A DNA stretch of 44,802 nt from Verrucomicrobiota bacterium (lineage in GTDB: Bacteria > Verrucomicrobiota > Verrucomicrobiia > Limisphaerales > UBA8199), in contig JARKQH010000290.1 of the NCBI GenBank assembly GCA_029974925.1, positions 1 to 44,802 on the forward strand. Reading direction: 5' to 3'. Shown here one piece after another: positions 11,022-44,802 of the stretch. The notes beneath the pieces were generated by a model that had not been told where the DNA came from, did not search any database, and was given only the letters and a program-made list of their open reading frames with translations. Position numbers and translations under genes: made by a program. Numbering within the stretch: position 1 is the first letter of the stretch; every line of letters starts with the position of its first letter.

Positions 11022-11221
11022 ATATCTTAATCGCATCAGCCGTGGAAGCACCAACCTTTCTTGTCGTGTCTTTTACTGACACGGCCCGCGGCGTTTCCCC
11101 ACTCTCAGCATGCTCCGTCCGCTCGGCGGTTCACTTGCTCTCGACCAACTGCTCATGCGACATCAACACCAGCCCCAGCCTTGGTCGAGAACGTGGCGGA
11201 CTCCTTCAGCCCCCAGCGGGG

Positions 11222-19634: not shown

Positions 19635-20298
19635 TAAAATCACAAAACTTGCCGGCTAGTCTTGTAAGCCTTCGCCCGGAAGTCAATTGGAGAAACCGGC
19701 ATTGAAAAAACCGGCGAAGCGGGACGACCGGGGACTCCCCGCTCCCCGCCAAACCAGTCGAGTCGAGACGAGAGCACGGGCTGAAAGGCGCGGAGCCCAT
19801 GGCCGCCGCTCCCCTCTGCCTCGTCGAAACGGACATGGAGCTTACCCCCCCATGCTTCCCTGGCGCTTTCCGGAATACACCGAAGGGAGGGGGAGGCCTG
19901 GACCGCTGACCGCCGACGTCCTCGCGCTACACCTTTCAACCTTCCTACCTTCCAACCTTCCTACTTTCCCACTTTCCTACTTTCCCACTCCCCCCCTCCC
20001 ACGTCGCCCCCATTCAGCCGTCCCAACCCAAGGCGCGAAAATCCAAAGCGGCGCGGCAGTGCCGCAGTCCAGGGGGGCGATGAATGGAGCGAGTTCTCCA
20101 GCTTCGGATCGGCCTGTCTGACAACATGGAGGGGAGAATCCAGCCCGGTGCGCCAAGGATGGTTTTTCCCCGACCATGACATTTCAACCAACTTACTATT
20201 GTCCATAAGTTAAGGGTTGATATAGTTGGGCGAATCGGCGTGCGGCTTTGGCGCCTCTGCCTGCGGCGGAGCCGCGAGGGTGCAACCGGTTTGAAGTT
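19635..20298. other. Divergent spacer with repeat remnants
   Basis: This 660-nt spacer lies between the divergent FGE-like gene and the second giant lamin-tail gene and should contain both promoters. It holds a period-8 pyrimidine tract (listed separately) and a GCGGC-AGT-GCCGC hairpin at about 20055-20067. The 17-nt string starting in that hairpin at 20056 recurs exactly at 20959 inside the next gene. The open frames here are short and lack protein character. I see no clear -35/-10 pair. Confidence 0.55.
19932..19987. repeat. Seven tandem octamers, polypyrimidine (consensus CYTTYCNA)
   Basis: Seven units follow without interruption: CCTTTCAA, CCTTCCTA, CCTTCCAA, CCTTCCTA, CTTTCCCA, CTTTCCTA, CTTTCCCA. 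A C-rich stretch then continues to about 20000. The complementary strand is almost all purine with GGAAAG or GGAAGG in nearly every unit. Such tracts can slip during replication or adopt triplex structure. Confidence 0.9.
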
Positions 20299-23200: not shown

Positions 23201-26200
23201 CCGGTGGCATCAAGGCCGGCGGGCGGGGGATCATTCGAAACTGCTTTTTCGGCAAGCCGGTTGGCTACAACGATGTGATTGATTTCACGGGGGGTAACCG
23301 CAATTACAGCCAGCCCATTCTGCAGCTTTATCAGAATGTCTTCACCGGAGCCACCGATGACGTGCTGGACCTGGACGGGACGGATGCCTGGATCGAAGGG
23401 AACCTTTTTCTGCACTGCCATCGGAACGGGGCGCCCGACAGCTCCAGCGCCATCTCGGGGGGGAGTTCGGGCCCGGACACTTCCGAAGTCACAGTGATTG
23501 GGAACTTGTTCTTCGATTGTGATCACGTCGCGACGGCCAAGGAGGGCAACTTCTACACCTTCCTGAACAATACCATGGTCCGGATCACCCAGGTCGGGGG
23601 CATGGACACGGCCTCGGCGGTGTTCAACCTGAGGGACACCGAACCGTCGCCCACGGCGTTCGGCGCCGGCATCTACGCCGAGGGCAACATCATTGTGGAA
23701 GCGGCAGCCTTGGTGCGGAACTATGATCCGGCCCAAAGCACGGTGGTTTTCAACCGCAATCTTCTGCCCTCTGGCTGGAGCGGGCCAGGAAGCGGCAATT
23801 CGACCAACGCGCCCCGGCTAAGCCATGTGCCTACTCTGGAAGAGACGCAGTTCGGTTCGTGGGAGGAAGCCCAGGCGATGTGGCAATGGCTGAGTCTGGG
23901 ACCAGGCTCGCCCGGGCGGGGCACGGGTCCCAACGGGCGGGATATGGGAGGGGTTATACCGCTGGGCGCGTCGGTTTCCGGGGAGCCGGACAGCTTGACT
24001 TCGTCCAACAGCGCGCGACTGGAGGTTGGGGTGGTGCGCACGGGCAACGGCATACCCGTGGCGGGGTTTCCGCAAGGGTCGGGTTATACGCATTACAAGT
24101 GGCGGCTCAATGACGGTGCCTGGAGCGCCGAGACGCCCGTCGGGACACCGGTGGTGTTGTCGAACCTAAGTGACGGCACCTATTGGGTGGAAGTGACCGG
24201 AAAACGGGACTCGGGTTGGTATCAGGACGCGGTGGAGCTGGAGGGAAGCACGACCCTCTCGAAGGCCTGGACCGTGCAGGCCGGGTTGTCCGGACTGCGG
24301 ATCAACGAAATTCTGGCGCGCAACGGGGGCATCCTGGTGACCAATGGCGAATCGCCGGACTTGATCGAGCTGTTCAACGCCGGGCAGAGTGTTGTGAACC
24401 TGTCGGGCAAGGGGCTGACCGACAACCCGCTGAACCCGTATAAGTTCATTTTCCCAAGCGGGACGAGCCTGGCTCCGGGGCAATATCTTTTGCTTTATGG
24501 GGATGTGGGTCCCGATCCGGCCCGTTACACGGGTTTTGGTTTGAAGCAGGAGGGTGATGTTCTTTATCTGTATGATTCCGTGGCGGAGGGGGGCGGGCTT
24601 CGGGAAAAGGTCGAATTCGGGCCCCAGCTTGCCAATCTGTCCATTGGCCGTCTGCCGGGCGGACAGTGGGGGCTGTGCCAGCCGACGCCCGGGAGCGCCA
24701 ACAAGGAGCACCCGACCGGCGATTTCCGCGCGCTGAGAATCAATGAATGGCTGGCAGCCGGGACCCCGGCGCTTCCGGATGACTTTGTCGAGCTTTACAA
24801 CCCGGATGCCTTGCCGGTGGACATGGGAGGATGCTACCTGAGCGACGCTCCGGACGGGAGTCCGGCCCTCCATCGCATCAGGCCGCTCAGCTTCATCGCC
24901 GGCGGCGGCTTTTTTGTGTTCAAGGCGGATGGGAACACCGGGCAGGGGCCGGAACATCTTGGGTTCAGCCTGCGGTCGGAAGGCGGAGGGATTGGTCTTT
25001 TCGGGCCGGACCTGGCGGTGATTGACCGGGTGTTTTACGGCCCGCAAAGCGCCGGCATTTCCGAAGGGCGGTCGCCCAATGGGGCGGCGGCGTTGCGATT
25101 CTTTTCGACGCCCACACCGGGGGCGGGAAATCCCGGCGGCAGTCCCGATGTAACGGTGATCACGACGACCTACCGGCTGCTGGAGCTGACCAACGAATGG
25201 CGTTATTACGCGATGGGAGCCGAGCCGGCAGGAACATGGAAGAACCCTCAGTATGCGGACACGTCCTGGCCTCTGGGAAGTGGCCTGCTGGGGGTGGAAA
25301 ACACGTCGCCGTATCCGTATCCGGCCCCGATCCTGACGCCGCTGCCCCTGACCAACGGGCAGGGATCGAACATTCTGACTTATTACTTCAGGACGACTTT
25401 TGTTGTGCCCACGAACCTTGCGGGATTTGCAATAGACACGGGAATCTACCTGGATGACGGAGCGGTGTTCTATTTGAATGGCAATGAAGCGGGCCGTTTG
25501 CGGCTGCCGGGGGGGACAATCGCGTATTCAACCCTGGCGACCAACCAACCGTCCGAGGGAGTCCGCGAATCACTCCCCATTCCGGCGTCGGCCCTGTTGC
25601 CGGGAACCAACACCCTGGCGGTGGAAGTGCATCAAAGCGCGGTGACCAGCAGCGACATCGTGTTTGGGATGACGTTGAGCGCTTCCCGAACGGTCTATAT
25701 CACCAATTATCAGAGCCTGGTGATCAACGAGGTGTTTGCCGGCAACGGCCCTGCCGGCGACGCCATCGAACTTTATAACCCGGGCAATCTGCCGTTGAGC
25801 CTGGCCGGGTACCGATTGACCGATGACCTGGCCCAACCCGAGCGCTGGGTTTTCCCTGCGGGCGTCATTCTCGCGGCTGGGGAGCGGTTGGTGGTTCGAT
25901 TTGACTCCGGAACGGCCCCCTCAACGACCACGGGTCCCACCCTGAACACGGGATTTGCTTTGAATTCCGCTGGCGACGCAGTTTACCTGCTGGACCCGAC
26001 CTCTTCGCTGGCCGACGCGGTGGTGTTTGGGCCGCAGGCAGCGGATTTCTCGATTGGACGGATTCCCGACGGCACAGCGCGGTGGACGATCAATTTGCCG
26101 ACGCTTGGGTCCCAGAATATTGAGGCCACGGTCGGTGACCCGACAAAGCTGAGGATCAACGAGTGGGCGGCAAGCGTGGCCGGCGGACCCGACTGGTTCG

Positions 26201-30859: not shown

Positions 30860-32608
30860 TCAAGGGGCGTAGGCTTTGGCGTCGTGGTCGGCGCCGTGGC
30901 ACGTCAAGGAGCAATTGCCGCGGCGGAGGCCTGTGGAGAGGTATTCGAGCCGGCCGTTGGAGGAGGCGGACACGTAGTCGCGATTGAAGTTGATGAGGTG
31001 GGGGACCGTTTGGACGCCGTGCGAGTCGTGGCAGGTGGTACAGGCGGCGCGTTCATCCACGATGTGGAGGCGGTGAAACGGGAAGCTGTCATCGGCGAGG
31101 ATGCTGACACGGTCGTGGCATTTGTAACAGAGGGCGTAGGTGCCGGCGCTTTCGGCGTTGAAATCCTGGAGCACAAGCTGGCGTTCGAGAATCGGCTGAT
31201 AAATGGAGCCGTGGGGGCCGTTGGGGCCGGAACCGCCGTTCCCGGGGCCCTGGTCGCTGTTGTGACAGTCGGTGCAGTAAACGCGACTGGCGGTGCTCCA
31301 GCCGGGCAGGAGGCTGGGGACCGAGGGGTTTTTGCCGGCGGTCATCACGGGGTGGAAGGAGGCATTGCCGGGCTGGAATTCCAGGCGGGTGTTGGTTTGA
31401 ACGAACTGGCGGTTCACGCGAGCCGGCCCGCGATTCAAACTGTCGGCGTGGCAACGGAAGCAAAGCTCGTACTCCATGGTGAGGGGCTCGGCAACGGTGC
31501 CGGCGGCAGTGATGCCTTTGACACCTGCCAGGGCGCCGGTGGCCAGGGGCGCCTGGGCAGACGACCGGCGGGAGGCGTGAGGATTGTGGCAATCCACGCA
31601 CTCGACATGGCGGGGCGGGTTGAGGGCATCCTCGGCGGGGTCATGGACGCCCGAGGTGTCGAGAATGGGGTGGGCGCTGAACTTGTTGAACTCGGGCTGG
31701 AGGTTGTGAGTGGCCACGTTGCCGTTGTGACAGGCAAAGCAGTTGTCTTCCTCGAGGGCGTGGTTGAGGAGGCGGGGTTTGGTGCCGGCGGCGTGGGAGG
31801 CATGGCAACTGGCGCAGGCGTTGGCCGCCACCGTCGTGTTGGTCGAGTGCGGCCAGGGATTCAGTCCGGTCCCGTTCCAGGTCTTGTTGGAGAGCCGGTG
31901 GGCCGAATCGGCCCAATAATTGGGGTTGTGACATTGCAGGCAGAGGGCGGAGGCATAGTTGTCCTGGACCAGGAACTTGCCGTATTGATTGTCGTGGGGG
32001 TCGTGGCAGGAGGTGCATTGCATCTGGCCGGTGTGGTCGAGGCGCACCTTGTTGTTCAGGGTCGCGGGATCACGCAACTGGCCGTGGGCAGTCGCCAGGG
32101 CGCTGTCATAGACAAAGGAGATCGGGTGATCGTCGGAGAGGTCGGTTCCGAGATTGGCCGGTCCGGCCGGCATGGTGGTGACTGCATTGCGCATTTCAAT
32201 GGGAACCGACCGGCTGTGAACCATTCCCAGCGCAACGGTTCCATCATGGCAGCTCAGGCAGAGTTTGGAAGAGCCGGTGGGCTGACCGATGGTGGCTTTG
32301 ATGGTCGAGCTGCTGTACGGGATGTAGGCCGCTTGTGACATGGCATGGTTCCACAGCGGCAATTCGCCGGTGCCGCGATGCGGCGTGTGACAGAACAGAC
32401 AGACTTCGGACTCGGTGCTGGCCTTGATGGCGCCGCGGCCGGCGATGGAAAGGTCATGTTTCGAAGCCAGGATGGTTTCGCCGGATGCCGCGCCGGGGTG
32501 GAGAACCAGCCCCAAGGCGGGCAGCAGGGTGCTGGTTGCGAAAAGGAGCCGGCGGCCGAAAATGGCCGCGCGAGCAAGGCGGGAATGGCTGAAACGACTG
32601 GAACTCAT
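30860..32608 (-). CDS. Exported dodecahaem c-type cytochrome (11 CXXCH + 1 CX3CH), outer-surface candidate
   Basis: The 582-residue product has a long signal peptide (cleavage near ASG-ETI, residue 43) and no lipobox. Haem motifs start at C70, C117, C198, C223, C265, C290, C337, C383, C445, C494 and C523; a last site at C566 is CSLTCH, a CX3CH variant. Residues 50-230 match the separate tetrahaem cytochrome (38692-39420) in motif order: CxxCH, PLWxHA, GSSxxCLSCHDGTVA, HPISFxYDxALA, MQCxSCHDxH, LCxxCH. It is the last gene of the porin-cytochrome block; its ATG overlaps the TGA of the upstream propeller gene (ATGA). By analogy with Geobacter OmcB-type conduits it would sit on the cell surface and pass electrons to external acceptors; this is inference from haem number and context. 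Confidence 0.9.
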   Translation of the reverse strand: MSSSRFSHSRLARAAIFGRRLLFATSTLLPALGLVLHPGAASGETILASKHDLSIAGRGAIKASTESEVCLFCHTPHRGTGELPLWNHAMSQAAYIPYSSSTIKATIGQPTGSSKLCLSCHDGTVALGMVHSRSVPIEMRNAVTTMPAGPANLGTDLSDDHPISFVYDSALATAHGQLRDPATLNNKVRLDHTGQMQCTSCHDPHDNQYGKFLVQDNYASALCLQCHNPNYWADSAHRLSNKTWNGTGLNPWPHSTNTTVAANACASCHASHAAGTKPRLLNHALEEDNCFACHNGNVATHNLQPEFNKFSAHPILDTSGVHDPAEDALNPPRHVECVDCHNPHASRRSSAQAPLATGALAGVKGITAAGTVAEPLTMEYELCFRCHADSLNRGPARVNRQFVQTNTRLEFQPGNASFHPVMTAGKNPSVPSLLPGWSTASRVYCTDCHNSDQGPGNGGSGPNGPHGSIYQPILERQLVLQDFNAESAGTYALCYKCHDRVSILADDSFPFHRLHIVDERAACTTCHDSHGVQTVPHLINFNRDYVSASSNGRLEYLSTGLRRGNCSLTCHGADHDAKAYAP

Positions 32609-33714
32609 GACGGGCCGATGTATTTGAAAATCTGCAGCCGGCGGTTATAGGAATCGGCGACAAAAATTTCGTTGTTGCGGCTGATGGCAATGCCGTTGGG
32701 CAGCCAGAATTCGCCCGCGCCCGAGCCCGGGGCGCCGAAGGCGAGCAGGAGGCGGCCCGCCGGATCGAAGATCTGGACGTTATCAAACAGGGCATCTATG
32801 ACATAAACATGGCCGAAGGAATCGGCGGCGACCCCCTTGGGGCGGCTGAACTGGCCGGGGCTGTCGCCCAGCCGGCCGATTTGGCCAACGAACCGGCCAG
32901 CCGCATCCAGGATTTGCACGCGGCTGTTCATGGAGTCGGTGACCAGGAGGCGGCCCTCGGAGTCCGCCGCCAGGTGCGTGGGGAAATTGAATTCGCCGGG
33001 GCCGTCGCCGCGGCGGCCGAATTCAGCGACGAATTGCCCTTGCCTGTCGAAGACGACGATGCAATGGCGCAGGGAATCGGCGACACAGAGGCGGCCAAGG
33101 CTGATAGCCAATCCGGCGGGGCGCTCGAGGCGGTTGGTGAGCTGGCCCTGGAGCTTGCCTGACAGGTCGAACGTGATGACCCGGCCCAGGCCGGAATCCG
33201 CGACAAACAGGAGGTCCCCTTGTTTGGCGACGGCGACAGGCGAGACGAAACGGACCGAGCCCACTTTCGTCCAGCGATGCCATTTTTTCCTGGACCGATC
33301 GTAATAGCAGACGGCAGCAGCCCCGGTGTCGGTCACGCAGAGGTTATCCGATTCGTCCAGGGCAAGGCCAAAAGGCTTGAGCAGGGGTTCGTTGCCTTTG
33401 TCTGAACCCGTCAGCCACTGGCCAAAGCGGGTGAAGGCCGAGCGGGTGATGCCGAGGTCGGCCGGACGCCAGACGCTTTGCGAATAGCCGATGCGGGCGG
33501 TCAGAGGGGGTTCGGGCCAGACCGGAGGAGCGACCGGCTCGGCTGCGTGGGGCTGGCGGGACACGCGGGCGCAACCCGTGAGGACGGACATGCCGCCGGC
33601 CAGGAGCGCCAGCCCGGCAAGGAGCGGCAAGACGACCGACCGCGCCCCAGGGCACGATGAGCCTGGGCGGGACTTGCCGCGGCGCAACCGGGATTGGCGT
33701 CGGACCATCATCAC
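32605..33714 (-). CDS. NHL-repeat six-bladed beta-propeller lipoprotein (downstream copy)
   Basis: The 369-residue product has an Arg-rich N-terminus, a hydrophobic segment and a lipobox (L45-T46-G47-C48), so it is probably a lipoprotein. Six NHL-type blades follow, each with a version of PxGLAxxxxGxLxVxDxxxxxVxxFDxxGxxxxxFG, for example PTHLAADSEGRLLVTDSMNSRVQILDAAGRF. NHL propellers usually bind protein or sugar ligands and have no enzymatic signature here. The frame opens with GTG-ATG-ATG at 33714; the exact start among these is not decidable. The start lies 6 nt after the barrel stop and the stop overlaps the 12-haem cytochrome start, so it is translated with the conduit. A role as an outer-membrane assembly or docking partner is inferred. 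Confidence 0.9.
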   Translation of the reverse strand: MMMVRRQSRLRRGKSRPGSSCPGARSVVLPLLAGLALLAGGMSVLTGCARVSRQPHAAEPVAPPVWPEPPLTARIGYSQSVWRPADLGITRSAFTRFGQWLTGSDKGNEPLLKPFGLALDESDNLCVTDTGAAAVCYYDRSRKKWHRWTKVGSVRFVSPVAVAKQGDLLFVADSGLGRVITFDLSGKLQGQLTNRLERPAGLAISLGRLCVADSLRHCIVVFDRQGQFVAEFGRRGDGPGEFNFPTHLAADSEGRLLVTDSMNSRVQILDAAGRFVGQIGRLGDSPGQFSRPKGVAADSFGHVYVIDALFDNVQIFDPAGRLLLAFGAPGSGAGEFWLPNGIAISRNNEIFVADSYNRRLQIFKYIGPS

Positions 33715-33720: not shown

Positions 33721-35829
33721 TCAGAATATTCGTTTGAGGCGGACAAAGAGCAAATGCTTTTGCCGTTCCTGTTGGTCGAGGTACAGCTCGTAGTCGTAAT
33801 CGTACCCCACATTCAGGGTGGTGCGGCCAATCACGTAACGGAGCGAAGGCCGGAGAGTCGCCAGAATCTGTTTCGGACCCAAACCCCGGCGGTAAGCGAC
33901 CCCGGCGTCGGCGTCCAGGCCAAGGCGGCGGGTCAGGGCGCGGCGGTAACGGGTGGTGAAGCGGTAGTCTTCCTCGGTCCGGTTGAGGCTAGTAAAGTCC
34001 GTGAGCGTTTCAGTGAAGTCCAGGTTTAGAGAGGACACGTCATCCGGCCGAAACATGAAGGACTGGAAGAGGCGGGTGACGTTGTAGTCCGAGTCGGTTG
34101 AATCGTAGATTTGGTATTCGGCACCGGCGCGGAACCAGCGCCAGTTGAAATCCGTGCCGACGGTGTAGGTGCTGTATTCCTGGATGCGGAGGTCAGCAGG
34201 GGCGTTGTTCTCGTTGACGCTGACGCGGCCGTAGAGGCCCAGGAGGTTTTTCCAGAGATCGAACCGAATGTGAAAGAGGGTCGTGAGGGTTTCATAGCTG
34301 CCCGGGGGCGTAATGTCGCTCTGGTAATCCACCACCACGGCGGGAGGGATGGGTTCGCCGATGGGCCGGAGCCAGACGATGGCGGTGCGGGAGCCGCGGG
34401 GCTCGACGAGGTAATGGAAGCCGTTGAAGAAGGTGCGCAGGGGATCGTCCGGGTCGCGGACCACGATGGTGGCGGTGAGGACGTTGGGGAATTCGAGGAG
34501 GAAGCTCCACGGGCCGGCGCCGGGCTCGCCGGCGGCGGTGACGGTGTGCCGCTCGTTTTGGATGGTGCGAAAGTCGCCGGTGTTTTCCTGTTCGTTATGG
34601 TCCAGGAACACGGAGGCGCCGAGGCGCAGATGATGCTCGTCGGTGAGGCGCTTGGTATAGACCTCGGAGATGCCGCCGCCAACGCGGGTGATGGAGCTGG
34701 AGCTGGCGGCATCCGAGCTTTGGGCGTCCGACCCGCGAACAATCAGGCTGGAGCCCAGGCTTTCGTAAAGCTGATGCGAGAGGGTGCCCTGCCCGTTGAA
34801 ATTGTCCGAGGTGAAGGGGCCGGTTTCGAAATGGTCATAGGTCAGGTCGTATTGGCTGCGGAGGTTGGGGCGGTGTTCGGCGCTGAAGCCGAGGTTGCCA
34901 ATGTACTCGTCGCTGGTTTCGAAGGTGGTATCGCGTTTGACCATGCTGGCGCTGGCGTGGAGGCGGTATTGATCCGCCGCGCCGAACCGTTCGTTGTCGC
35001 CAATGGAAACGGCGTGATCGGTTCCGTCGCTGAGGGAGGGGCCGTCGGCGCGGCTGTAATGATTGAGGCTGTAGCTGAGGAGGCTGTCGCCCCGGTCGCG
35101 GCGGTGGCGCAATTCCAGATTGGCATTATCCTCGTCAATCACCGTTTCCTGGGTGACATCCACGGTATTGGTTTGGGGGACGAAAACGGGTGTTCCGCCG
35201 ATCCACACCGGCACCAGGACGACCTGGTTGATCGGGTAACGGCTCGACCCGTTTTCGCCCCGGTGCTGATAGCCGGCGGTAAACAGCCAGGGTTCGTGGT
35301 CCCACACCAGCCGCCCGCCGTAGCGCCAGCTTTCGACCAGGGTGCGGGTGAAGAAATCGTTATCCCGGTAGGAATGATCGTAGCTGGCGAAGGCGGAAGC
35401 GTTGAAGGGTTTGTCCGCCAGGAAGAGCAGCTCGGTGGAAAAACTGCCGAGGTACTGCCACTCGCGAGTGGTGGTGGAGGCGCCGCTGCGTACTTTGTAT
35501 TCCGAGTAGCCAAAGGCGCCATCCGTGCGGAGGAAATACTGGAGGAGGTTGGGATGATAGACGGAGCCATTGGCATTGAGGCTGAGGGAAGGCCCGGCAA
35601 AAAGCCGTTGGTAACTGACGGTGGCGCCGGAATTTTCCACGCGGGTTTGCTGGTAATTTCCCTCGGCGTACACGCCGGCGCTGACCTCGGAGAGGCGGAA
35701 CGTGAACCACTGGGGTTCGATGTAGCGGGGCTGGTAACGGGCCTGGGCGAAGGCGCAGGGGCTGGCGCCCGCCGCCACCCAGAGCAGAAACAACCAGAAC
35801 CGCGCGCTGTGCATGGGTCTGAGCATCAT
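33721..35829 (-). CDS. Outer-membrane beta-barrel of porin-cytochrome conduit (MtrB/OmbB-like role)
   Basis: From the ATG at 35829 (overlapping the upstream stop as ATGA) the product is 702 residues; ATGs at 35826 and 35814 are alternatives, the last placing the signal peptide MHSARFWLFLLWVAAGASPC right at the start. The mature part is a series of alternating polar/aromatic strands with Asp/Asn/Gly-rich loops, for example YGGRLVWDHEPWLFTAGYQH and RTTLNVGYDYDYELYLDQQ, and ends ...LLFVRLKRIF, where a terminal Phe is the usual BamA recognition signal. There is no Cys in the mature protein. I cannot count strands exactly; size is similar to MtrB and OmbB barrels, which sheathe a multihaem cytochrome through the outer membrane. 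Sequence is not recognisably MtrB, so the functional call rests on fold and position between multihaem cytochromes. Confidence 0.85.
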   Translation of the reverse strand: MMLRPMHSARFWLFLLWVAAGASPCAFAQARYQPRYIEPQWFTFRLSEVSAGVYAEGNYQQTRVENSGATVSYQRLFAGPSLSLNANGSVYHPNLLQYFLRTDGAFGYSEYKVRSGASTTTREWQYLGSFSTELLFLADKPFNASAFASYDHSYRDNDFFTRTLVESWRYGGRLVWDHEPWLFTAGYQHRGENGSSRYPINQVVLVPVWIGGTPVFVPQTNTVDVTQETVIDEDNANLELRHRRDRGDSLLSYSLNHYSRADGPSLSDGTDHAVSIGDNERFGAADQYRLHASASMVKRDTTFETSDEYIGNLGFSAEHRPNLRSQYDLTYDHFETGPFTSDNFNGQGTLSHQLYESLGSSLIVRGSDAQSSDAASSSSITRVGGGISEVYTKRLTDEHHLRLGASVFLDHNEQENTGDFRTIQNERHTVTAAGEPGAGPWSFLLEFPNVLTATIVVRDPDDPLRTFFNGFHYLVEPRGSRTAIVWLRPIGEPIPPAVVVDYQSDITPPGSYETLTTLFHIRFDLWKNLLGLYGRVSVNENNAPADLRIQEYSTYTVGTDFNWRWFRAGAEYQIYDSTDSDYNVTRLFQSFMFRPDDVSSLNLDFTETLTDFTSLNRTEEDYRFTTRYRRALTRRLGLDADAGVAYRRGLGPKQILATLRPSLRYVIGRTTLNVGYDYDYELYLDQQERQKHLLFVRLKRIF

Positions 35830-37208
35830 TTGGGGGATTCGCCTGGCGGAGCGGCCGGAGGTTTGGCCCCGGGCTTGAGGAACAACTTTTCGGCCCCGGC
35901 GTGGGGGTCGTGGCACGTCGAGCAGCCTTGGCCAGCCGGGGCTTTGGCATGCGCTTCGACGGCCGCCATGTCTTTCTCCTCGTGACACTCGAAGCAAACC
36001 TGCCGGGCATCCTTGAGCAACAGGGCCGGCTCGGCGGCGTGGTGCGGGGCATGGCAGGAGGCGCATTCGCCGTTGGCGGCGGGATCATGCTTGAAAGCGG
36101 CCTTTTCGATGGCTTGTTGCAGGTCTTCGTGGCACTCGAAGCACAGCTTGCCGTCCGGCTTCGCGAGCAGGCCTTTCAGCTCGGCCTGATGCGGCTGGTG
36201 ACAGGAGGAGCATTCGCCGTTCTCGGCCGGTTGATGCTTCACCTTGGCGGCCTGAAGCTGCTGCTGAACGTCCTCGTGGCACTCGAAGCACAGCTTGCCG
36301 TCCGGCTTCGCAAGCAGGCCTTTCAGCTCGGCCTGATGCGGCTGGTGACAGGAGGAGCATTCGCCGTTTTCGGCCGGTTGATGCTTCACCTTGGCAGCCT
36401 GAAGCTGCTGCTGAACATCCTCGTGGCACTCGAAGCACAATTGCCCGTCGGGCTTGAGCAGCAGCTTGGGCTGGTCGGCGAAGTGCGGATTGTGGCACGA
36501 GCTGCATTCGCCATTGTCTGCCGGCTGGTGTTTGACCTTGGCGGCCTGAAGGCTCTGCTGGATATCCTCATGGCATTCGAAGCACAATTTATCCTCCGCC
36601 CGGGTCAGCAGCCCCTTGAATTCCGACCCATGGGCCAGGTGACAGGAGTGGCACTCGCCGTTCTCGACCGGCTGGTGCTTTGCTTTGGCCTGGGCAGGAA
36701 ACGGGTCATGACATTCGGCACACAAGGCGGCGCCGGTCAGGTGCAGCATGTGGGGATTGGCCGATCCGTGGGGATCGTGGCAGCCGGTGCATTCGCCGTT
36801 TTCGGCGGGTTGATGTTTGACCTTAAGGGCGGTCAGGAAATTGTCGTGGCATCCAAAGCAGATTTGGGTCTGCGGTCCCTTCATTTTCACCGAGAAGCGC
36901 GAGACATGGCACTCGGTGCAGTTTTTGTCCTCATAAGGAGGATGGGGGGTGAAGGCGTGCACGACCGGGACGGGGGCCGGGGCCGGGGCAGCCTCCGGCA
37001 TCGCCAGCGGCCGGCCATCCTCGTCGTATTGCACACGGGCTGGAGCGTTGGTGGCGCCCGGAGCCGGGACGCCGTCGAAGAAGAAGGTCAGCCAGCGATG
37101 CTTGGTTTGGGTACTGCAGCCGACCAGCAGCCCAACGCCGAGGAGCACGATCCAGAACCCCGGCCGCGGCGGTCGTTTTCGATGGGGCGCGTCAGGTGCG
37201 GCGGGCAT
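35826..37208 (-). CDS. Pentadecahaem (15 CXXCH) cytochrome lipoprotein built of 49-residue repeats
   Basis: The 460-residue product has an N-terminal helix with lipobox (L28-V29-G30-C31), then HRWLTFFFDGVP, a motif I associate with multihaem proteins of this type, and a Pro/Ala linker. Fifteen CXXCH motifs follow (C97, 117, 140, 163, 186, 209, 235, 258, 284, 307, 333, 356, 382, 405, 429), alternating 23 and 26 residues apart over most of the length. The repeating unit carries two haems (CFECHED...KVKHQPAENGECSSCHxPH...LLxKPDGKL), the 'doubled CXXCH' pattern. Extra conserved His in KHQP probably serve as second axial ligands. It is encoded directly upstream of the barrel with a 4-nt overlap and would be the lipid-anchored electron wire of the conduit; whether it faces the periplasm or the outside cannot be told. 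Confidence 0.93.
   Translation of the reverse strand: MPAAPDAPHRKRPPRPGFWIVLLGVGLLVGCSTQTKHRWLTFFFDGVPAPGATNAPARVQYDEDGRPLAMPEAAPAPAPVPVVHAFTPHPPYEDKNCTECHVSRFSVKMKGPQTQICFGCHDNFLTALKVKHQPAENGECTGCHDPHGSANPHMLHLTGAALCAECHDPFPAQAKAKHQPVENGECHSCHLAHGSEFKGLLTRAEDKLCFECHEDIQQSLQAAKVKHQPADNGECSSCHNPHFADQPKLLLKPDGQLCFECHEDVQQQLQAAKVKHQPAENGECSSCHQPHQAELKGLLAKPDGKLCFECHEDVQQQLQAAKVKHQPAENGECSSCHQPHQAELKGLLAKPDGKLCFECHEDLQQAIEKAAFKHDPAANGECASCHAPHHAAEPALLLKDARQVCFECHEEKDMAAVEAHAKAPAGQGCSTCHDPHAGAEKLFLKPGAKPPAAPPGESPK
36128..36568 (-). repeat. 147-bp in-frame tandem repeat inside the 15-haem gene
   Basis: Three consecutive 147-nt units start at 36128, 36275 and 36422 (each beginning at the CGTGGCACTCGAAG that encodes CFECH on the minus strand). 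A related copy begins at 36569 with CATGGCATTCGAAG. The first two are nearly identical in DNA, including at silent positions, which indicates recent duplication or gene conversion. Each unit codes 49 residues with two haem sites, so copy-number change would alter haem number by two without a frameshift. Confidence 0.9.
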
Positions 37209-37253: not shown

Positions 37254-38327
37254 TTAGCGTTTCTTGAGGAAGCCATAAACGCTGACTTTGTTCGGGCCGG
37301 CCTGGTTGGTGACCAGGATAAGGTACTCCAGCTTCTGGCCGGGGGCGACGTACTTCTGAAACAAGCCCAGGTTGTCATAGTCAATGGCCAGACCAGCGGG
37401 CAGGTATAGAGCCGCCGGCCCGCTGGACCGGGGTTCGCCGAACCACATCAGGAGACGGCCCTCGGGATCAAAGACCTGGGCGACCGGGGCGGCGGCGTCA
37501 ATCACGTAGCAACGATTCTGCCGGTCCACGCCGATGCCTTTGGGCATGGCAAAACGTCCCGGGGTCACGCCCAGCTCGCCGAAGGTCTGCAGGTGGTTGC
37601 CCTGCGCATCGTAAACTTTGACGGCGAAACCGCCCGTATCGCTGACGTAGATGCGGCCATCGTCGCCAATCGCCAGGTTGGTGGGCTGGAACAGGCGCTT
37701 TTGGTCGTCGAGGTCCAGCGTCGGGAAGGTTCGCAGGAGCTGGCGCGAGGCCTTGTCGTAAACGCGTACGCAGCGCCCTTTCAAATCGGTCAGGTAAAGC
37801 CGGTCGCCGGCCAGCGCGATGCCGCAGGGTTTCATCTCGTCCTTCACCCCAATGGCACCCAGATAATTGAGGTTTTTGTCAAAGATGAGCACCTGCTCGC
37901 GGCCGGTGTCGGTGATGTACATCGTCCCATCGTCATCCACGGCAATGTTGATGGGAACCTTGAAGGCACCCGCGCCGACCGGTTTGAGATAGCGCATTTT
38001 TCGGGCAGCCAAATCCGCGATGCTCACGTTCACCGCCTGGGTGTCACAGACATAGATCTTGCCCTTCTTGATCGTGATGCCGTAAGGCTTGATGATCGGG
38101 CGGTAAACCCGCTCCTTGCCAACCACGAAGTCGCTGAACTTGCCGCGGGCGCCCAGCTCGGATTCCGAGCCGTAACTCATCAGGTATTGTATCCGGGGTT
38201 CGTCAGGCGGAGGGGGGAACACCACGTAGTTTGCCGGCGCTGGTTTGCGGGCGGCGCAGCCCGCAGCCAGGAGCAGCACCGCCAGAGGCCAGAACCCACG
38301 ACGCAAGGCTTTAGAGATCGTCGTCAT
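37254..38327 (-). CDS. NHL-like six-bladed beta-propeller lipoprotein (upstream copy)
   Basis: The 357-residue product carries a signal with lipobox (LLLAAGC, C24), then PANYVVFPPPPDEPRIQYL and about six propeller blades, such as PINIAVDDDGTMYITDTGREQVLIFDKNLNYLGAIG and PTNLAIGDDGRIYVSDTGGFAVKVYDAQGNHLQTFG. The PPPP..EPRIQYL opening is common to NHL lipoproteins found next to multihaem cytochromes. It is more diverged from the downstream propeller than a recent duplicate would be. The ATG at 38327 has GGGTGA a few nt upstream. Its stop lies 45 nt before the 15-haem lipoprotein start. Location is probably the periplasmic or outer face of the outer membrane. There are no haem motifs; a structural or assembly role is inferred. 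Confidence 0.9.
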   Translation of the reverse strand: MTTISKALRRGFWPLAVLLLAAGCAARKPAPANYVVFPPPPDEPRIQYLMSYGSESELGARGKFSDFVVGKERVYRPIIKPYGITIKKGKIYVCDTQAVNVSIADLAARKMRYLKPVGAGAFKVPINIAVDDDGTMYITDTGREQVLIFDKNLNYLGAIGVKDEMKPCGIALAGDRLYLTDLKGRCVRVYDKASRQLLRTFPTLDLDDQKRLFQPTNLAIGDDGRIYVSDTGGFAVKVYDAQGNHLQTFGELGVTPGRFAMPKGIGVDRQNRCYVIDAAAPVAQVFDPEGRLLMWFGEPRSSGPAALYLPAGLAIDYDNLGLFQKYVAPGQKLEYLILVTNQAGPNKVSVYGFLKKR

Positions 38328-38640
38328 AGATCACCCATTCGTGTTCAGTCAGCTTCTCCAAGGGCGCAATCCGCCATGCCAGCACGCAAGTCGCCGTTGC
38401 ACCGTAACTTTCACGCGCGCAGGATGCTAAGGCAGCGGTCGGGCGACAACACCGTTGTTGTTTGAGACTTCGCATTTTTTGGTTTGCGGACCGCTGGCGG
38501 CCCAGCCCTGTCAGCGTCGGGATTCTAGCGGGCCAGCCTTTGGCGCGCATCAAAAAAGGCAAAAAAAGCGAAGCACCGCCTCCCCACGCTTGTGAGGCCG
38601 CCTGCCGTCGCATCCGAAAGGGAACGGCGAGTCGAGGCCG
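38328..38640 (-). other. Leader region of the porin-cytochrome genes, possible small ORF
   Basis: The 313-nt stretch lies between the terminator of the tetrahaem gene and the upstream propeller gene, so it should contain the promoter for the propeller/15-haem/barrel/12-haem unit. A minus-strand frame ending at 38311 overlaps the propeller start by 17 nt. Its last residues read LEKLTEHEWVIYDDDL, which is more protein-like than random shadow sequence, but no start with a ribosome site is evident. I do not annotate it as a gene. Confidence 0.35.
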
Positions 38641-38673
38641 AAAACGAAGAGGCCCTGTTACCAGGGCCTCTTC
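38641..38673 (-). terminator. Rho-independent terminator of the tetrahaem cytochrome gene
   Basis: The minus strand forms a perfect 12-bp stem (GAAGAGGCCCTG and its complement) around a 4-nt loop, followed by GTTTT. It starts 19 nt past the stop at 38692. It separates the tetrahaem gene from the conduit genes, so the tetrahaem protein can be made in a different amount from the rest. Confidence 0.9.
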
Positions 38674-38691: not shown

Positions 38692-39420
38692 TTACTTGAT
38701 GTGGCAGGTGCGGCAGATCAAGCTGCCCCGGCCTTGGGCATCCGAGCCGGTAATCTTCATGAGAATGCCGCTCGAAGGCGCCGAGCCAATGAGCTTGTGA
38801 ACATCATGGCAGGAGGAGCACTGCATTTTGCCACCGACCAGCAAGGCTTCATCAATCGTCTTGCCGGTGAGGCTGGTGCCGCTCCAGCTCGCCGGCACCG
38901 GGGCGGTCTGGACCGTGAGGGCGGTCTTGGGATCGCCGATTTTGTAGGTGCTGGGGTTTTCGAGCCCGCCGTCCAACAACGCCAGACTGGCATCGTAGGT
39001 AAACGAGATCGGGTGGGTGGTATGGAGGTCCGGACCGATCTGGGCCGCCGGATCAATCATCACCGCCGCGCCGTTGGTGCCGCTGAGCGAGGCGTTGATG
39101 GCGACCGTGCCATCGTGGCAGCTCAAGCACGCCAGCGAACTGCCGTTGGGCGACCCGGGACGGGCGGCCTGGAAGGTTGGACTATCGTACATGACGAAGG
39201 GACCGGACGAGGTCGCGTGGACCCACAACGGAACGATCTGCGCGTCATCGGTATGATGCGCCGCATGGCAGGGAGAGCAGACGCCGGACCGGGTATTCCA
39301 GGTATTGTTGGTTCCGGAGAAGTCGTGAACCGACCCTTCGATACCCTTGTTGACCGCCGCCTGCGAGAGGAGGGGCAGGGAAAGTGCCACCCCAACCAGG
39401 AGGAGTTTTAGTTTTCTCAT
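38692..39420 (-). CDS. Exported tetrahaem c-type cytochrome, candidate OmcE-like electron carrier or filament subunit
   Basis: The ATG at 39420 gives a signal peptide (MRKLKLLLVGVALSLPLLSQAA) and a mature protein of ~220 residues with CXXCH at C48, C98, C201 and C236. In-frame codons continue upstream to 39591 but are not protein-like. Conserved context includes SVHDFSG, PLWVHA, GSSLACLSCHDGTVA, HPISFTYDASLALLDGG and MQCSSCHDVH. The long gap between haems 2 and 3 (103 residues), four haems and mature size resemble my recollection of Geobacter OmcE, whose subunits polymerise into cytochrome nanowires; no comparison was run. A periplasmic shuttle is the alternative. Own terminator and 177-nt upstream spacer suggest separate regulation. 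The same haem pattern recurs at the N-terminus of the 12-haem cytochrome. Confidence 0.88.
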   Translation of the reverse strand: MRKLKLLLVGVALSLPLLSQAAVNKGIEGSVHDFSGTNNTWNTRSGVCSPCHAAHHTDDAQIVPLWVHATSSGPFVMYDSPTFQAARPGSPNGSSLACLSCHDGTVAINASLSGTNGAAVMIDPAAQIGPDLHTTHPISFTYDASLALLDGGLENPSTYKIGDPKTALTVQTAPVPASWSGTSLTGKTIDEALLVGGKMQCSSCHDVHKLIGSAPSSGILMKITGSDAQGRGSLICRTCHIK

Positions 39421-39597: not shown

Positions 39598-40674
39598 TCA
39601 GGCTTGGGCAGGCGCAACGTCCCACGCGGGGGGCGACACGGGGGCGCGGACGCCGCCGGGGATGGAGGGAGCATCAAAGCGCTGCATCAGTTCGCGGGCG
39701 CTCTGCTGAATGATGGTGTGGCAACGGGCCAGCTCCTGTTCACGGAGCCGGACGTTTTCGCGCACGATGGTTTCCAGATGGTCCACGTTGTAAAGGTAAA
39801 CGTTGGGCAAATCCTGCACCTCCGGCGCGACATCGCGGGGGACGGCGATGTCAATAAGGAACAAAGGACGGTTGCGCCGGGCGGCCATCACCGCAGCCAC
39901 TTGATCGCGGTGCAGAATGGTCTGCGGCGCACCTGTGGAGGTGACGACGATGTCCACGCCCGCCATGGCCTCGAGGCAGCCGTCCATCCCGACGGCCCGG
40001 CCGCCGAATTCGTCCGCCAGGAGCCGGGCCCGCTCGGGCGAGCGGTTCGCCACGATCACCGACTGGATACCTTTCTTGGCGAGGTGCCGGATGCAGGCTT
40101 CGCCCATTTTGCCGGCGCCGATGATCATGACGGATTTGTCGGAGAGGTTATGATCGAAAATACGCTCGGCCAGCTCAACGGCAACGCTGCCGACAGAAGT
40201 CGCTCCCCGGCCAATGCAGGTTTCGGTGCGGATGCGTTTGGCGGTCTGCAAGGCGGCCTGGAACAGGCGGTTGGTAATGCGGCCGGTCAGCTTTGCCTCC
40301 TGTGCGGCCAGATAGGCCTGTTTTACCTGTCCCGTGATTTCGGTCTCGCCAATCACCATGGAGTCCAAGCCACCGGCAACCGCGAAAAGATGTTCGACTG
40401 CCTCGATGCCTTCCTTGATATACAGGTACGGGGTAAAATCGAGCTCTGCGGTGCTCAACAACTGAAACAGCCGGTGCGCCTTTCCTTTCGCCCAATTCGT
40501 CACCCCGTAAACCTCGACGCGGTTGCAGGTGGACACCAGCACGACCTCGGACAGGTTTCCGGCCAGCTTGAGCCGGCAACCATGGCAACGCAGGCGCGAA
40601 GCATGAACCGCCAGCCGCTCGCGGATTTCGACGGGCGCGGTTTTGTAGCTTAGGCCGGCGACGAAGAGTTTCAT
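39598..40674 (-). CDS. hemA: Glutamyl-tRNA reductase, short C-terminus
   Basis: HemA reduces glutamyl-tRNA to glutamate-1-semialdehyde with NADPH, the first committed step of haem synthesis by the C5 pathway. The start at 40674 (MKLFVAGLSYKTAPVEIRE) is the family's N-terminus; a GTG 17 codons upstream is unlikely. The catalytic Cys lies in VVLVSTCNRVEVYG; GLDSMVIGETEITGQVKQAY and the Rossmann VMIIGAGKMGE are intact. At 358 residues it is shorter than the usual ~410-430: the C-terminal dimerisation helices stop after ARELMQRFDAPSIP and a Pro-rich tail. Placement among five multihaem cytochrome genes fits a high haem demand. A probable terminator of the gene upstream lies at 40769-40790, so hemA should have its own promoter in the ~100 nt before its start. 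Confidence 0.95.
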   Translation of the reverse strand: MKLFVAGLSYKTAPVEIRERLAVHASRLRCHGCRLKLAGNLSEVVLVSTCNRVEVYGVTNWAKGKAHRLFQLLSTAELDFTPYLYIKEGIEAVEHLFAVAGGLDSMVIGETEITGQVKQAYLAAQEAKLTGRITNRLFQAALQTAKRIRTETCIGRGATSVGSVAVELAERIFDHNLSDKSVMIIGAGKMGEACIRHLAKKGIQSVIVANRSPERARLLADEFGGRAVGMDGCLEAMAGVDIVVTSTGAPQTILHRDQVAAVMAARRNRPLFLIDIAVPRDVAPEVQDLPNVYLYNVDHLETIVRENVRLREQELARCHTIIQQSARELMQRFDAPSIPGGVRAPVSPPAWDVAPAQA

Positions 40675-40768
40675 AGGCGCGGGAGACTGGTGACTGGATG
40701 CAACAATTCTTGCGTTGGTTAACACTAATTCAAGCTATCCATCTGATTTCACGCCCACAAGCCTATGA

Positions 40769-40906: not shown

Positions 40907-42673
40907 TCAGGAACCGGCGGGTGTGGACGGGCTGGCTTTCGCTTCGCGCACGGGTTCCTGGGGGGTGGTTGAGTCCGTCCCCGCCACCGCCGGGTCGAGG
41001 GGATGCTCCTCCTCGGCCCAGTGTTTGGAAACGCGTCCGTTCCAGCAGGCCCAGTTGAGCGGATAAACATCGGGGTCGAAGATGACATGGTAGAAATGCC
41101 AGACGAGGATGGCGAGGCAGGCCAGGATCGCTTCGTAATAATGGATGGTGAGGGCGACATCCACGATCCAGCGGGGGAGGAAGCGGGTGACGTCAATCTT
41201 AAACCAAATCATCAAGCCGGTGACGCCCATGATGATGGTGCCCCAGACCACCGCCCAGTATTCCATTTTTTCCGCGTAGCCGAAGCGGCCGATCCGCGGC
41301 TTTTGGGTGCTCAGGCCGGTGAGGAAGCGGGCGTTGTCCCCCAGGTCCGCCAGGTCCTTTTTCGCGGGCAACAAGTCTTTGACCAATTGCCGGCCCTCTT
41401 TTCGGGCAAAGATATAGAAGAGGTGGTAAGCCCCCACGGCGAGGAGGACGACCCCGGCGACGCGGTGGCTCCAGCTTCGGACCAATTCGTTCGAGCCCAT
41501 CAGGCGGGACAGCCAGGAATCGGGGAACTTGAGGGCGAAGCCGGTGACGGCGAGGATGATGAAACTGACCGCGAGCACCAGGTGCTGCATGCGCTGCGAG
41601 AAGTTCATGCGGAGGATGCTAAGGTCGGCGGCGCGGTACCGGGCGGCGACCTTGCGCCAAAAGACCAGGAGGTTGTGGGCGAGCATGAAGCCGATCGTGC
41701 CGAAGATCAGGATCAGATAAATGCGGCGGACCCACCAGTTGACTTTGCCGCCAATGCCGTCGCCTTCGCTTTCGGCGGAGACGTGGATTTTGCTTTCGAC
41801 GAAGTTCGCCGTGGCGCCGGCGTGGCACTTGCCGCAGGTCTCGACGAGGTTGTCTTTGTGGATGCTGGAGCGCGGGTCGGAGGACGGCAGGATTTTGTGG
41901 ACGCCATGGCAACTGGCGCAGTTGGCGGCGAGCGTGGAGCCGTACTGGGCGGCGAGGCCATGGTAGCTTTCGAAGAAGGTCTTCACGCGGTCGGGTGGCA
42001 GGCGGTACTTGGTGTTCAGCCGCTCGGAGGCGTGACAGTTGCTGCAAACATCGGCCGAGATGCGGAGGGGGCTGCTGCCTTTGAGACCCTGGATTTGGTG
42101 CTCGTAATGGCAGTCGGTGCAGGTCGGGGCTTCGCGGCGGCCCAGGGCAGTCGCTTTGCCGTGGACACTTTCCGCGACATCGCGGGCGGCTTGTTCATGG
42201 CAGGCGCCGCAGGTTTCAGCGAGCTTCGAAAAATGCAGGGGGGAATCCGCAGAGGTGGGGGGCAGGATGGAGTGCGTGCCATGACAATCGCTGCAGGTGG
42301 CGGAGCCAACTTCGCCGCGAGCCAGGGCGAGGCCATGAACGCTGGCGCCATAACTGGCGGATTGCTCCTCGTGACACTTCGCGCAATGGACCGGCTCGGC
42401 CGCAACCTCGTCGTCGGGATGTTTGTCAGTGATGTCGTCGTGGCAACTGGCGCAGGTGTTCGTTTTGTGAACCGAGGCTTTCAGCTTGTCCAGATCCACA
42501 TAGAGGGAGATGGCGCGTCCGGCGGCATTCGTTTTGTACAAGTCCTTGTCCGAGTGGCAGTCCATGCAGGAGCTGTCTTTGATCTCCTCCGCGGCACGGA
42601 GGGCGAGGGGCCGGCCCGCCACCAAGGCGGCGAGCAGGACAACCAGCGGAAGCAAGAAACGCGCAGACACCAT
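40907..42673 (-). CDS. CbcL-like inner-membrane cytochrome: nonahaem c domain fused to b-type cytochrome
   Basis: From the ATG at 42673 the product is 588 residues. After a signal/anchor segment (ARFLLPLVVLLAALVAG), nine CXXCH motifs (C36, 74, 97, 127, 155, 185, 210, 252, 280) fill the periplasmic part, with repeated SVHG and CxDCHGTHSILP features. From ~315 there are about five membrane helices with histidines placed for two b haems (H364, H403, H417, H511, H526/H529), as in HydC/FdnI-type cytochrome b subunits. Geobacter CbcL has the same plan, nine c haems plus a diheme b domain, and oxidises menaquinol for electron transfer to low-potential external acceptors. By that analogy this is the quinol-side entry of the chain. 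Relation to CbcL is architectural; I have not aligned them. An in-frame TTG lies two codons upstream. Confidence 0.9.
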   Translation of the reverse strand: MVSARFLLPLVVLLAALVAGRPLALRAAEEIKDSSCMDCHSDKDLYKTNAAGRAISLYVDLDKLKASVHKTNTCASCHDDITDKHPDDEVAAEPVHCAKCHEEQSASYGASVHGLALARGEVGSATCSDCHGTHSILPPTSADSPLHFSKLAETCGACHEQAARDVAESVHGKATALGRREAPTCTDCHYEHQIQGLKGSSPLRISADVCSNCHASERLNTKYRLPPDRVKTFFESYHGLAAQYGSTLAANCASCHGVHKILPSSDPRSSIHKDNLVETCGKCHAGATANFVESKIHVSAESEGDGIGGKVNWWVRRIYLILIFGTIGFMLAHNLLVFWRKVAARYRAADLSILRMNFSQRMQHLVLAVSFIILAVTGFALKFPDSWLSRLMGSNELVRSWSHRVAGVVLLAVGAYHLFYIFARKEGRQLVKDLLPAKKDLADLGDNARFLTGLSTQKPRIGRFGYAEKMEYWAVVWGTIIMGVTGLMIWFKIDVTRFLPRWIVDVALTIHYYEAILACLAILVWHFYHVIFDPDVYPLNWACWNGRVSKHWAEEEHPLDPAVAGTDSTTPQEPVREAKASPSTPAGS

Positions 42674-42906
42674 AATCAATCTTATTCAAGAAAGCCCGAT
42701 CCATCACGTAAGGCTCTACATGACTTGCCCAATGTTTCGCATTTTTTGCACTGTGTGGCCGGGAGGCGGCCGAAAATGCGGAGGCCGCGGCATGTGGCGG
42801 GCGGCCTGGGTTGCGTCCAACCAGCCGAAAATTGCGCGCTGGCCGGCCAGAAGGGGTCAGCGGCGCACCACGGAGACCCGAGGGGACAGACGAGCCGGCT
42901 GCCGGC

Positions 42907-44802
42907 TCAGTGGACCAGGCGGGTGGTCATGGCGTAGATGATGAGGATCAGAAGCAGAACGCCCAAACCGAAGAAAATGTAGCCGAACGAGCGCGCAATC
43001 CCCTTCCAGCGCTGCCATTCGTCGCGGACCCGGAAATCGTCCAGCCGGCCTTCAGCGACCAGGCGGTCGTACCAGCGGCGGCGTTCGTGGAGCATTTCGT
43101 TCTTGGAGACGCGGCCGGAGAAGATGACCGTGTCCATGGGGAATTTCTCGATGCGGAAATGCGTGTTGAAGAAGTGAATGGAGAAGATGAAGCCGGCGGC
43201 CAGCAGCGCTTCGTCCGAATGAATGATCAAGGCAACGTTAATGATCCAGCCGGGGAGAAAGGAAGTGAAGAATTCCGGGAACCACATGATGAGGCCCGAG
43301 GCGCCGATGATGAAGACGCCCCAAAAGACGGCGAAGTAATCGAATTTTTCCCAATAGGTCCAGCGGTCGAATTGAGGTTTGGGTCCCTTGCCAAAGAACC
43401 ACTTGTTGTGGGCGACGAAATCGCGCCAGTCATGGAGGGTGGGAACCATCGAATCCGGGCCGAAGAGAACATTCCAGAGTTGTTTGAAACTCAGCTTGCC
43501 GGTTTGCGAATCGCGGACCTTGTGGCGGCCATGCCAGGCCTTGACGGCAAGCGAGGCCAGATGCAAGCCGAAATACAGGAAGGTCACGATGGCGCCCAGG
43601 CGGTGGAGGGCGCGGGCGGTTTCGGCGCCGCCGATGAACTGGAAGAGGGTTTTGGCCCAATCCGTGTAATAGAACTTGAGCGGCATGCCGGTAATGACGA
43701 GCAGGAGGAAGCTGGTGACCACCAGGAAATGGAGGAAGCGGTCAAACGGGGCAAAGCGGGTGAACCATTCGCCGCCGGTCTGCGTCTCGATTTTGGCCTC
43801 GCGAAACCGTTTTGAGTCATGGAGGTAGAGGTACACGGCGCGGAACAGCCAGGCGATGGTGTGGCCGCCAAAGAAGACGAAGACCCCGACCAGGAGGCTG
43901 GTCATGAACATGAAGGTCCAATACAGAACCGGGAAGCGCTCGCGGTCCAAAGGGTTGGCGTGAGGCTGGTAGGCGGCAAAGCCCGGATTGGCGTCCGGAT
44001 GGCATTGCTGGCAGGTGGCGACGATGTTGGTTTTGGAGAGGCGCGAGGCGGGGTTGGAGGGCGGCAGGACGTCGTGGTGGCCGTGGCAGTCGTAGCAGGC
44101 GGCGACATCGGGAGCCGCATTGGGCTTGCCCAGCGCCATGGCCTTGCCGTGGTAGGTATCGCGGTAATGAGTCAGGCTGTCCTGGTGGCATTTGCCGCAG
44201 CGCTGGTCGCTGGCCATCTTAAAATGGCCGGTGGTGGGGGGTTCGACATCATGAGCCGTGTGGCAGTCCGTGCAGACGGGACCGCGTTTGTCGCCTTTGG
44301 CCAGCAACTGGCCATGGACGCTGGACATGTAGGTCTCCTCGACCTTGTAATGGCATTTGCCACACGTCTTGGCGACGTTGGCGGGATTGATGGGCGAATC
44401 GCGGTCCACCGCGCGTTTGATGTCGTGAACGCCGTGGCAATCGTTGCACGAGGGGGCGACAATCAAGCCCTGTTTGAGGAGTTTCTGGCCGTGGATGCTG
44501 TCCATGTAATGGGACGCAGCCTCCGTGTTCTTCATTTTGTATTCCTGGGTGAGGCCCTCGTTGCTGTGACAGGCCGCGCAGGTGCGTGGCAGGTTGAGTT
44601 TGAAGACGGGGGAATGGCCATCGGTCACGGGCAGGATGCCATGGGAACCGTGGCAGTCCCAGCAACTGGCAGCCCCGGAGGCGCCGAGGGTGTGGCTGAC
44701 ACCATGAATGCTGGTGGCGTACTGGGCGGCCGCCTTTTGATGGCTTTCTTTGGGTTCGTGACAATTGATGCAGTTGGGCGGGGGCAGTTTGCTTTCGTGA
44801 AC
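42907..44802 (-). CDS. Second CbcL-like multihaem c / cytochrome b fusion, N-terminus cut by window edge
   Basis: The frame stays open to the right edge, so the gene is 5'-truncated; a GTG at 44628 is internal because the 58 codons before it encode two further haem motifs (CINCH and CWDCH) in the same repeat style. The visible 631 residues contain nine CXXCH motifs (CINCH, CWDCH, CAACH, CNDCH, CGKCH, CTDCH, CGKCH, CYDCH, CQQCH), so the full protein has at least nine. About six membrane helices follow from FPVLYWTFMFMTSLLVGVFVFF onward, with histidines in FLHFLVV, ALHRLG, GLHLAS, LIIHSDEA and SIHFFNTHF for b haems. Compared with the gene downstream it has one extra C-terminal helix (SFGYIFFGLGVLLLILIIYAM) and a longer loop between helices. 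Likely an inner-membrane quinol dehydrogenase of the electron-export chain. Confidence 0.9.
   Translation of the reverse strand, partial: VHESKLPPPNCINCHEPKESHQKAAAQYATSIHGVSHTLGASGAASCWDCHGSHGILPVTDGHSPVFKLNLPRTCAACHSNEGLTQEYKMKNTEAASHYMDSIHGQKLLKQGLIVAPSCNDCHGVHDIKRAVDRDSPINPANVAKTCGKCHYKVEETYMSSVHGQLLAKGDKRGPVCTDCHTAHDVEPPTTGHFKMASDQRCGKCHQDSLTHYRDTYHGKAMALGKPNAAPDVAACYDCHGHHDVLPPSNPASRLSKTNIVATCQQCHPDANPGFAAYQPHANPLDRERFPVLYWTFMFMTSLLVGVFVFFGGHTIAWLFRAVYLYLHDSKRFREAKIETQTGGEWFTRFAPFDRFLHFLVVTSFLLLVITGMPLKFYYTDWAKTLFQFIGGAETARALHRLGAIVTFLYFGLHLASLAVKAWHGRHKVRDSQTGKLSFKQLWNVLFGPDSMVPTLHDWRDFVAHNKWFFGKGPKPQFDRWTYWEKFDYFAVFWGVFIIGASGLIMWFPEFFTSFLPGWIINVALIIHSDEALLAAGFIFSIHFFNTHFRIEKFPMDTVIFSGRVSKNEMLHERRRWYDRLVAEGRLDDFRVRDEWQRWKGIARSFGYIFFGLGVLLLILIIYAMTTRLVH

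Follow-up and report, generated by a model that had tools for sequence, protein, structure and literature searches.

Gene cluster around the tetrahaem cytochrome

The window (the whole stretch of DNA that was analysed, 44,802 nt) carries a UetA/OmcE-like tetrahaem cytochrome gene at 38692..39420, which specifies a precursor of 242 aa. The coding strand of this ORF is the minus strand, which the initial annotation left unstated, and the plus-strand reading contains a stop. Downstream of it and co-directional (all minus strand) are the genes for an NHL beta-propeller lipoprotein-like protein (NHL2, 37254..38327), a putative lipoprotein with 15 CXXCH motifs (35826..37208), a putative outer-membrane beta-barrel (33721..35829), a second NHL beta-propeller (NHL1, 32605..33714), and a UetJ-like conduit cytochrome with 12 haems (30860..32608; 11 CXXCH and one CxxxCH). 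Both NHL assignments rest on Pfam NHL matches and synteny, the lipoprotein on its CXXCH count and synteny, and the barrel, which occupies the conduit's porin position, has a C-terminal Phe and gave no Pfam match. Upstream lie a hemA-like gene for glutamyl-tRNA reductase (39598..40725, minus) and two multihaem-cytochrome b fusions of CbcL type, putative quinone oxidoreductases (40907..42679 and 42907..44628, both minus), the first with Ni_hydr_CYTB and c7/c3 haem domains and the second also recognised from its Pfam domains. A viral-contig scan of the window returned nothing, and no PHROGs matches were seen.

This gene order recurs in family relatives, and also, with some rearrangement, in Calditrichota, Bacteroidota, Nitrospirota, Desulfobacterota, Gamma- and Betaproteobacteria, Verrucomicrobiota and others. 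Among 33 long loci, each NHL protein is present in 31 and the conduit cytochrome in 30. Within the order of the source organism, the tetrahaem protein and the large conduit protein are both clearly present in 35 of 43 matching genomes, or 38 of 43 if fragments at contig ends are included (counted by hand, with one weak match left out). In most family relatives hemA directly adjoins the tetrahaem gene on its upstream side, an arrangement that may couple the supply of haem to the making of cytochromes. The conduit multihaem lipoprotein has 15 CXXCH motifs here, 17–19 in several relatives and five in most other phyla, an expansion of haem repeats.

The cluster resembles the Uet system (uetABCDEFGHIJ) of Tenderiales and Gallionella, which comprises the tetrahaem UetA, the porin UetC, the NHL proteins UetHI and the undecahaem UetJ (PMC10734462). 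The window holds candidates for UetA, UetHI, UetC and UetJ, including a conduit protein with 11 CXXCH motifs, a likeness of architecture to the published description (PMC10734462) and not to named UetA or UetJ sequences. The trihaem UetDEG and the peptidyl-prolyl isomerase UetB were not seen among the ORFs of the cluster and their Pfam matches, and the window has instead the 15-haem lipoprotein, hemA and two CbcL-like genes; since UetB and UetDEG are missing, the cluster is called Uet-like and not Uet. Porin-multihaem gene clusters have been described in Verrucomicrobiota, with a proposed role in extracellular electron transfer and with no homologs of Geobacter outer-surface cytochromes reported (He et al. 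2017, PMC5615132). The present cluster is similar to these by description, and differs in that an OmcE homolog is demonstrated in it. The OetABI/OmcKL conduits were also considered and set aside; their source paper makes no mention of NHL proteins or OmcE (PMC10553843).

Relationship of the tetrahaem protein to OmcE

The protein carries a Sec-type signal peptide (~39358-39420, minus), and cleavage after SQA-21, placed by eye, would leave a mature part (~38695-39357) of about 221 aa; no secretion signature was seen beyond this Sec signal. There are exactly four CXXCH motifs, ending in H52, H102, H205 and H240, and these are, on the minus strand, CSPCH of haem 1 (C48-H52, 39265..39279), which is invariant in 115 homologs, CLSCH of haem 2 (C98-H102, 39115..39129, part of CLSCHDGTVA), CSSCH of haem 3 (C201-H205, 38806..38820) and CRTCH of haem 4 (C236-H240, 38701..38715), the last three identified from the sequence and the homolog alignment. 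The gaps between haems are 45, 98 and 30 residues, compared to 47, 93 and 20 in OmcE and 49, 82 and 21 in the 'putative multiheme cytochrome c' of PDB entry 9yuq. The initial annotation had proposed an OmcE-like subunit on the basis of four CXXCH motifs, a mature size near 220 residues, a long haem 2–3 spacing and an HPISF and CLSCHDGTVA context, and each of these features is borne out by the translated ORF.

A phmmer search of all PDB sequences with the tetrahaem protein matched the OmcE filament of Geobacter sulfurreducens (7tfs, E 3.4e-10) and 9yuq (E 3.1e-9), while the other four matches had E values of 0.09–1. With a profile of nine family relatives the same two entries were matched over the full length at E 2.6e-33 and 1.9e-32, respectively. 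An AlphaFold2 model, built on an alignment of 123 sequences (pLDDT 83.8, pTM 0.82), was used for a Foldseek search of the PDB, and 7tfs was the sole match below E 0.001 (E 2.8e-8, probability 1.00), although other folds missing from such match lists are not thereby contradicted. Alignment of the model with 7tfs (VIA-align) gave a Z score of 13.1 and 2.8 Å over 174 residues, with a TM score (target) of 0.57. The structural match to OmcE that the initial annotation had called for therefore exists. Matches to the c3/c7 Pfam models were limited to weak C-terminal haem-motif hits below the cut-offs, and a small, compact fold as in periplasmic shuttles of c3/STC/c7 type was rejected, the predicted fold being that of OmcE. 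OmcS, a hexahaem filament protein that has neither sequence nor fold similarity to OmcE, was not among the matches in the PDB sequence, profile or structure searches, but the haems of OmcE superpose on haems 1–4 of OmcS, including the interfacial His coordination (PMC9473688).

Besides the four CXXCH histidines, four further positions are (nearly) always His among 115 standalone homologs and 55 homologous domains of conduit cytochromes, and all eight axial positions are also His in OmcE and 9yuq. The four are H32, an N-terminal distal ligand in HDFS (39325..39327; 112/115 standalone proteins and 55/55 conduit domains), H55 in the CxxCHxxH of haem 1 (39256..39258), H136, a distal ligand in THPISF (39013..39015; 115/115 and 55/55), and H208, which follows the haem 3 motif (38797-38799), all on the minus strand. 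The protein thus resembles OmcE in its four CXXCH motifs, near-identical spacing, eight axial His positions and predicted fold, and departs from it in overall identity (26–27% in structural alignments), in the PLW motif (PLWVH/PLWNH against PLWNR), and in gene context. The gene stands first in a conduit cluster whose partner cytochrome carries an OmcE-like domain, which is missing at the OmcE locus of genome G359.

Taken by sequence and fold, it is near certain that the tetrahaem protein belongs to the OmcE family, and the OmcE-like identity proposed for it stands, with homology, predicted fold, ligand set and haem spacing all in agreement. Direct orthology to OmcE was ruled out by the tree. 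With wide sampling, OmcE, 9yuq and desulfobacterial homologs form one group (support 99/94), Uet-like standalone proteins join on both sides of this group, and the conduit domains form another (100/99); an early tree, in which OmcE lay beside the conduit domains with all standalone proteins opposite, changed under better sampling. The nearest named locus in the tree is L034 (Verrucomicrobia subdivision 3), which makes a verrucomicrobial origin of the window probable. While 9yuq shares full-length homology and all eight ligands with the tetrahaem protein, it clusters with OmcE in the tree. The tetrahaem protein and OmcE are non-orthologous members of one family, the former within a clade of Uet-like conduit clusters, and because this clade is separate, the protein is filed as an OmcE-family protein and not as OmcE.

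A hairpin after the tetrahaem gene

A terminator-like intercistronic hairpin (38646..38673, minus) lies between the tetrahaem gene and the next co-directional gene. It has a perfect 12-bp stem followed by GTTTTC, with a dG of -29.4 kcal/mol (z -4.8 relative to shuffles), consistent with the initial annotation of a terminator belonging to this gene. A consensus scanner missed it because of the short T-run, and reported a second terminator-like site at 38562-38585. The position of the hairpin is conserved but its sequence is not: in an initial set of six loci, five relatives and the window, every tetrahaem gene is followed by a strong hairpin, and these hairpins differ in sequence. More widely, a strong stem was found at 39 of 72 tetrahaem-to-NHL junctions compared to 4 of 104 other junctions (Fisher p 7e-15), counts in which loci related by descent are not independent, and a comparison for which the greater length of the gap that follows the tetrahaem gene (median 93 nt) is in part a confounder. 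A shuffle control is free of this confounding, and in it 50% of the stretches after the tetrahaem gene beat all 20 dinucleotide shuffles, against about 5% expected and 6–15% for other genes.

Such a hairpin would let the amount of subunit vary independently of the amount of conduit. It had been proposed that the subunit is made in excess; the conserved hairpins agree with this, but codon adaptation lends no support, and as a sign of high expression it was not borne out, the tetrahaem gene having the lowest value in the cluster (0.576 compared to 0.61–0.68, with only three ribosomal genes as the reference).

A domain common to the tetrahaem protein and the conduit cytochrome

The N-terminal part of the UetJ-like conduit cytochrome (31925..32518, minus) is a complete OmcE-like tetrahaem domain, detected by profile and BLASTP searches. 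A profile of these conduit domains matches OmcE (7tfs) at E 8.4e-36, up to haem 4, and the domain of the window matches the tetrahaem protein at E 7e-25 (BLASTP). It has been kept in 55 conduit homologs across many phyla, and in all 55 the donor His of its haem 1 CxxCHxxH is present, as is a further CxxCHxxH, that of haem 5, which follows haem 4 at a distance of 36–51 residues.

In OmcE and OmcS, one of the His ligands of an interfacial haem is supplied by the neighbouring subunit (PMC12954529; PMC9473688). The passage of electrons from cytochrome filaments into the cell has been described as not well understood (PMC10553843).

By analogy with CxxCHxxH motifs in general and with OmcS, the CxxCHxxH of one OmcE subunit may donate the ligand to haem 4 of its neighbour. 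The CxxCHxxH that follows haem 4 in the conduit cytochrome resembles a covalent copy of the presumed junction between OmcE subunits. If OmcE subunits are indeed joined via haem 4 and CxxCHxxH, then the conduit contains this junction in covalent form, and the His of its own first CxxCHxxH is free for an incoming subunit.

The best explanation, to which we assign a probability of about 0.65, is that the tetrahaem protein is an extracellular subunit of an OmcE-family filament, part of a Uet-like system for extracellular electron transfer, and that its docking site is a first subunit built into the conduit. Each subunit would hold four bis-His c-type haems in the OmcE arrangement, and polymerisation would proceed head to tail, H55 in the CxxCHxxH of haem 1 ligating haem 4 of the neighbour. 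At the cell, the haem 5 CxxCHxxH would serve in cis as the ligand donor to haem 4 of the UetJ-like N-domain, itself an OmcE-like subunit, and the free CxxCHxxH His of this N-domain would take the first subunit of the wire and so attach it. Electrons would probably pass from the CbcL-like quinone oxidoreductases via the multihaem lipoprotein, the barrel and UetJ to the wire. While the tests of sequence, fold and ligands settle homology and the predicted fold, polymerisation is something we infer from the homology with OmcE; that the tetrahaem protein forms a filament is, on its own, probable. Docking on the UetJ-like domain is held more tentatively, and so is the broader proposal that UetJ-type conduit cytochromes are filament-conduit adaptors. 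In these the N-domain would be a built-in first subunit that sets the polarity of the wire and links the wire to the outer-membrane porin complex by the wire's own haem 4/CxxCHxxH junction, with paralogs lacking the donor His serving as caps that end the wire in some phyla.

Indirect evidence for trans ligation by H55 comes from its pattern of retention and loss. It is conserved in 105 of the 115 standalone proteins, in 55/55 conduit domains, in OmcE and in 9yuq. Ten standalone paralogs, from Calditrichota, Bacteroidota and related clusters, lack this His and mostly also the adjacent PLWN[H/R] motif (L030:10799, L028:16276, L073:17410, L027:14890, L037:16633, L038:11140, L029:16479, L102:12496, L059:11756 and L032:6668). 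Exceptions are L030, which retains PLWNR and has lost only H55, and L037, which retains PLW. All ten keep the proximal histidines, H136 and H208, and two also lack H32. They do not represent ten independent losses, as the three that were sampled in the first careful tree share one fast-evolving group. This pattern is what an end subunit with a single contact side would show, and it points to H55 as a ligand in trans. The standalone proteins have an additional conserved histidine, H68 (101/115), and if it were a ligand then all eight ligands could sit in one chain, but such a role is unlikely because OmcE, 9yuq and most conduit domains have Arg or Lys there.

An alternative that concerns only the docking step, and agrees with the preferred reading on polymerisation, is that a filament forms but is not attached via UetJ, the OmcE-like domain of UetJ being an old gene fusion with no docking role. 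In three genomes with close homologs of OmcE (G359, G583 and G449), an OmcE-like domain was not found in any long protein, so this type of filament does not require such a protein; the OmcE homolog of G359 (locus L124, 61% identity) is adjoined by NHL and 8-haem genes. Weighing against the fusion is the conservation, in 55/55 conduit homologs, of the haem 1 donor His in a domain where it would have no haem in cis to ligate if it is OmcE-like, and we regard an unattached filament as unlikely.

Less probable again is a non-polymeric partnership, in which the tetrahaem protein binds the UetJ N-domain 1:1, acting as a cap or as a terminal reductase that can be exchanged, and the heterodimer mimics two filament subunits but grows no further. 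The tetrahaem protein is nearly always found together with a UetJ-like protein, its clade is separate from OmcE, and filaments have been reported for OmcE and not for tetrahaem proteins of Uet clusters. A cap would need the acceptor haem 4 and no donor His, yet the donor is retained in the great majority of standalone proteins and lost only in the separate set of paralogs, and the hairpin suggests expression that is not stoichiometric. Improbable is a soluble periplasmic or surface shuttle that feeds the conduit, ligates every haem within its own chain and has inherited the OmcE fold from an ancestor without polymerising. The Sec-only signal peptide and the conserved H68, which could complete an in-chain ligand set, would suit it, but the full OmcE fold and the selective loss of H55 in paralogs, which suggests ligation outside the chain, speak against it, and so does the presence of Arg or Lys in place of H68 in OmcE, in 9yuq and in conduit domains.

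The window encodes a subunit of filament type next to a conduit with which it shares a domain, and docking can thus be framed as a concrete hypothesis that names its residues. The 16 chains of 9yuq within one PDB entry may also fit a filament. The tetrahaem gene itself joins the known OmcE family, and it is the domain common to wire and conduit that is of interest; no description of it was found in the literature searched, a search that left most subscription journals outside. The analysis also links Uet-like systems to OmcE, of which the Uet papers searched make no mention, and shows that conduit clusters in several phyla encode members of the OmcE family, some of them in organisms that are not known to make nanowires. 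If the adaptor reading is true, cytochrome nanowires in many phyla would have a general type of plug.

Several other features were seen in the window and its relatives. The tetrahaem gene is tandemly duplicated in one family relative (G010; L019:14770-16405), and two relatives carry a further cluster that encodes an OmcE-like tetrahaem protein (L023:8891-19991 and L024:3317-13949), where the two co-directional genes after the tetrahaem gene resemble, by eye, those for ResB/CcsA proteins of cytochrome c biogenesis. Elsewhere in the window there are two giant ORFs, 4020-11054 (minus; 2344 aa) and 20248-27999 (plus; 2583 aa), whose products carry lamin-tail and CotH kinase domains.
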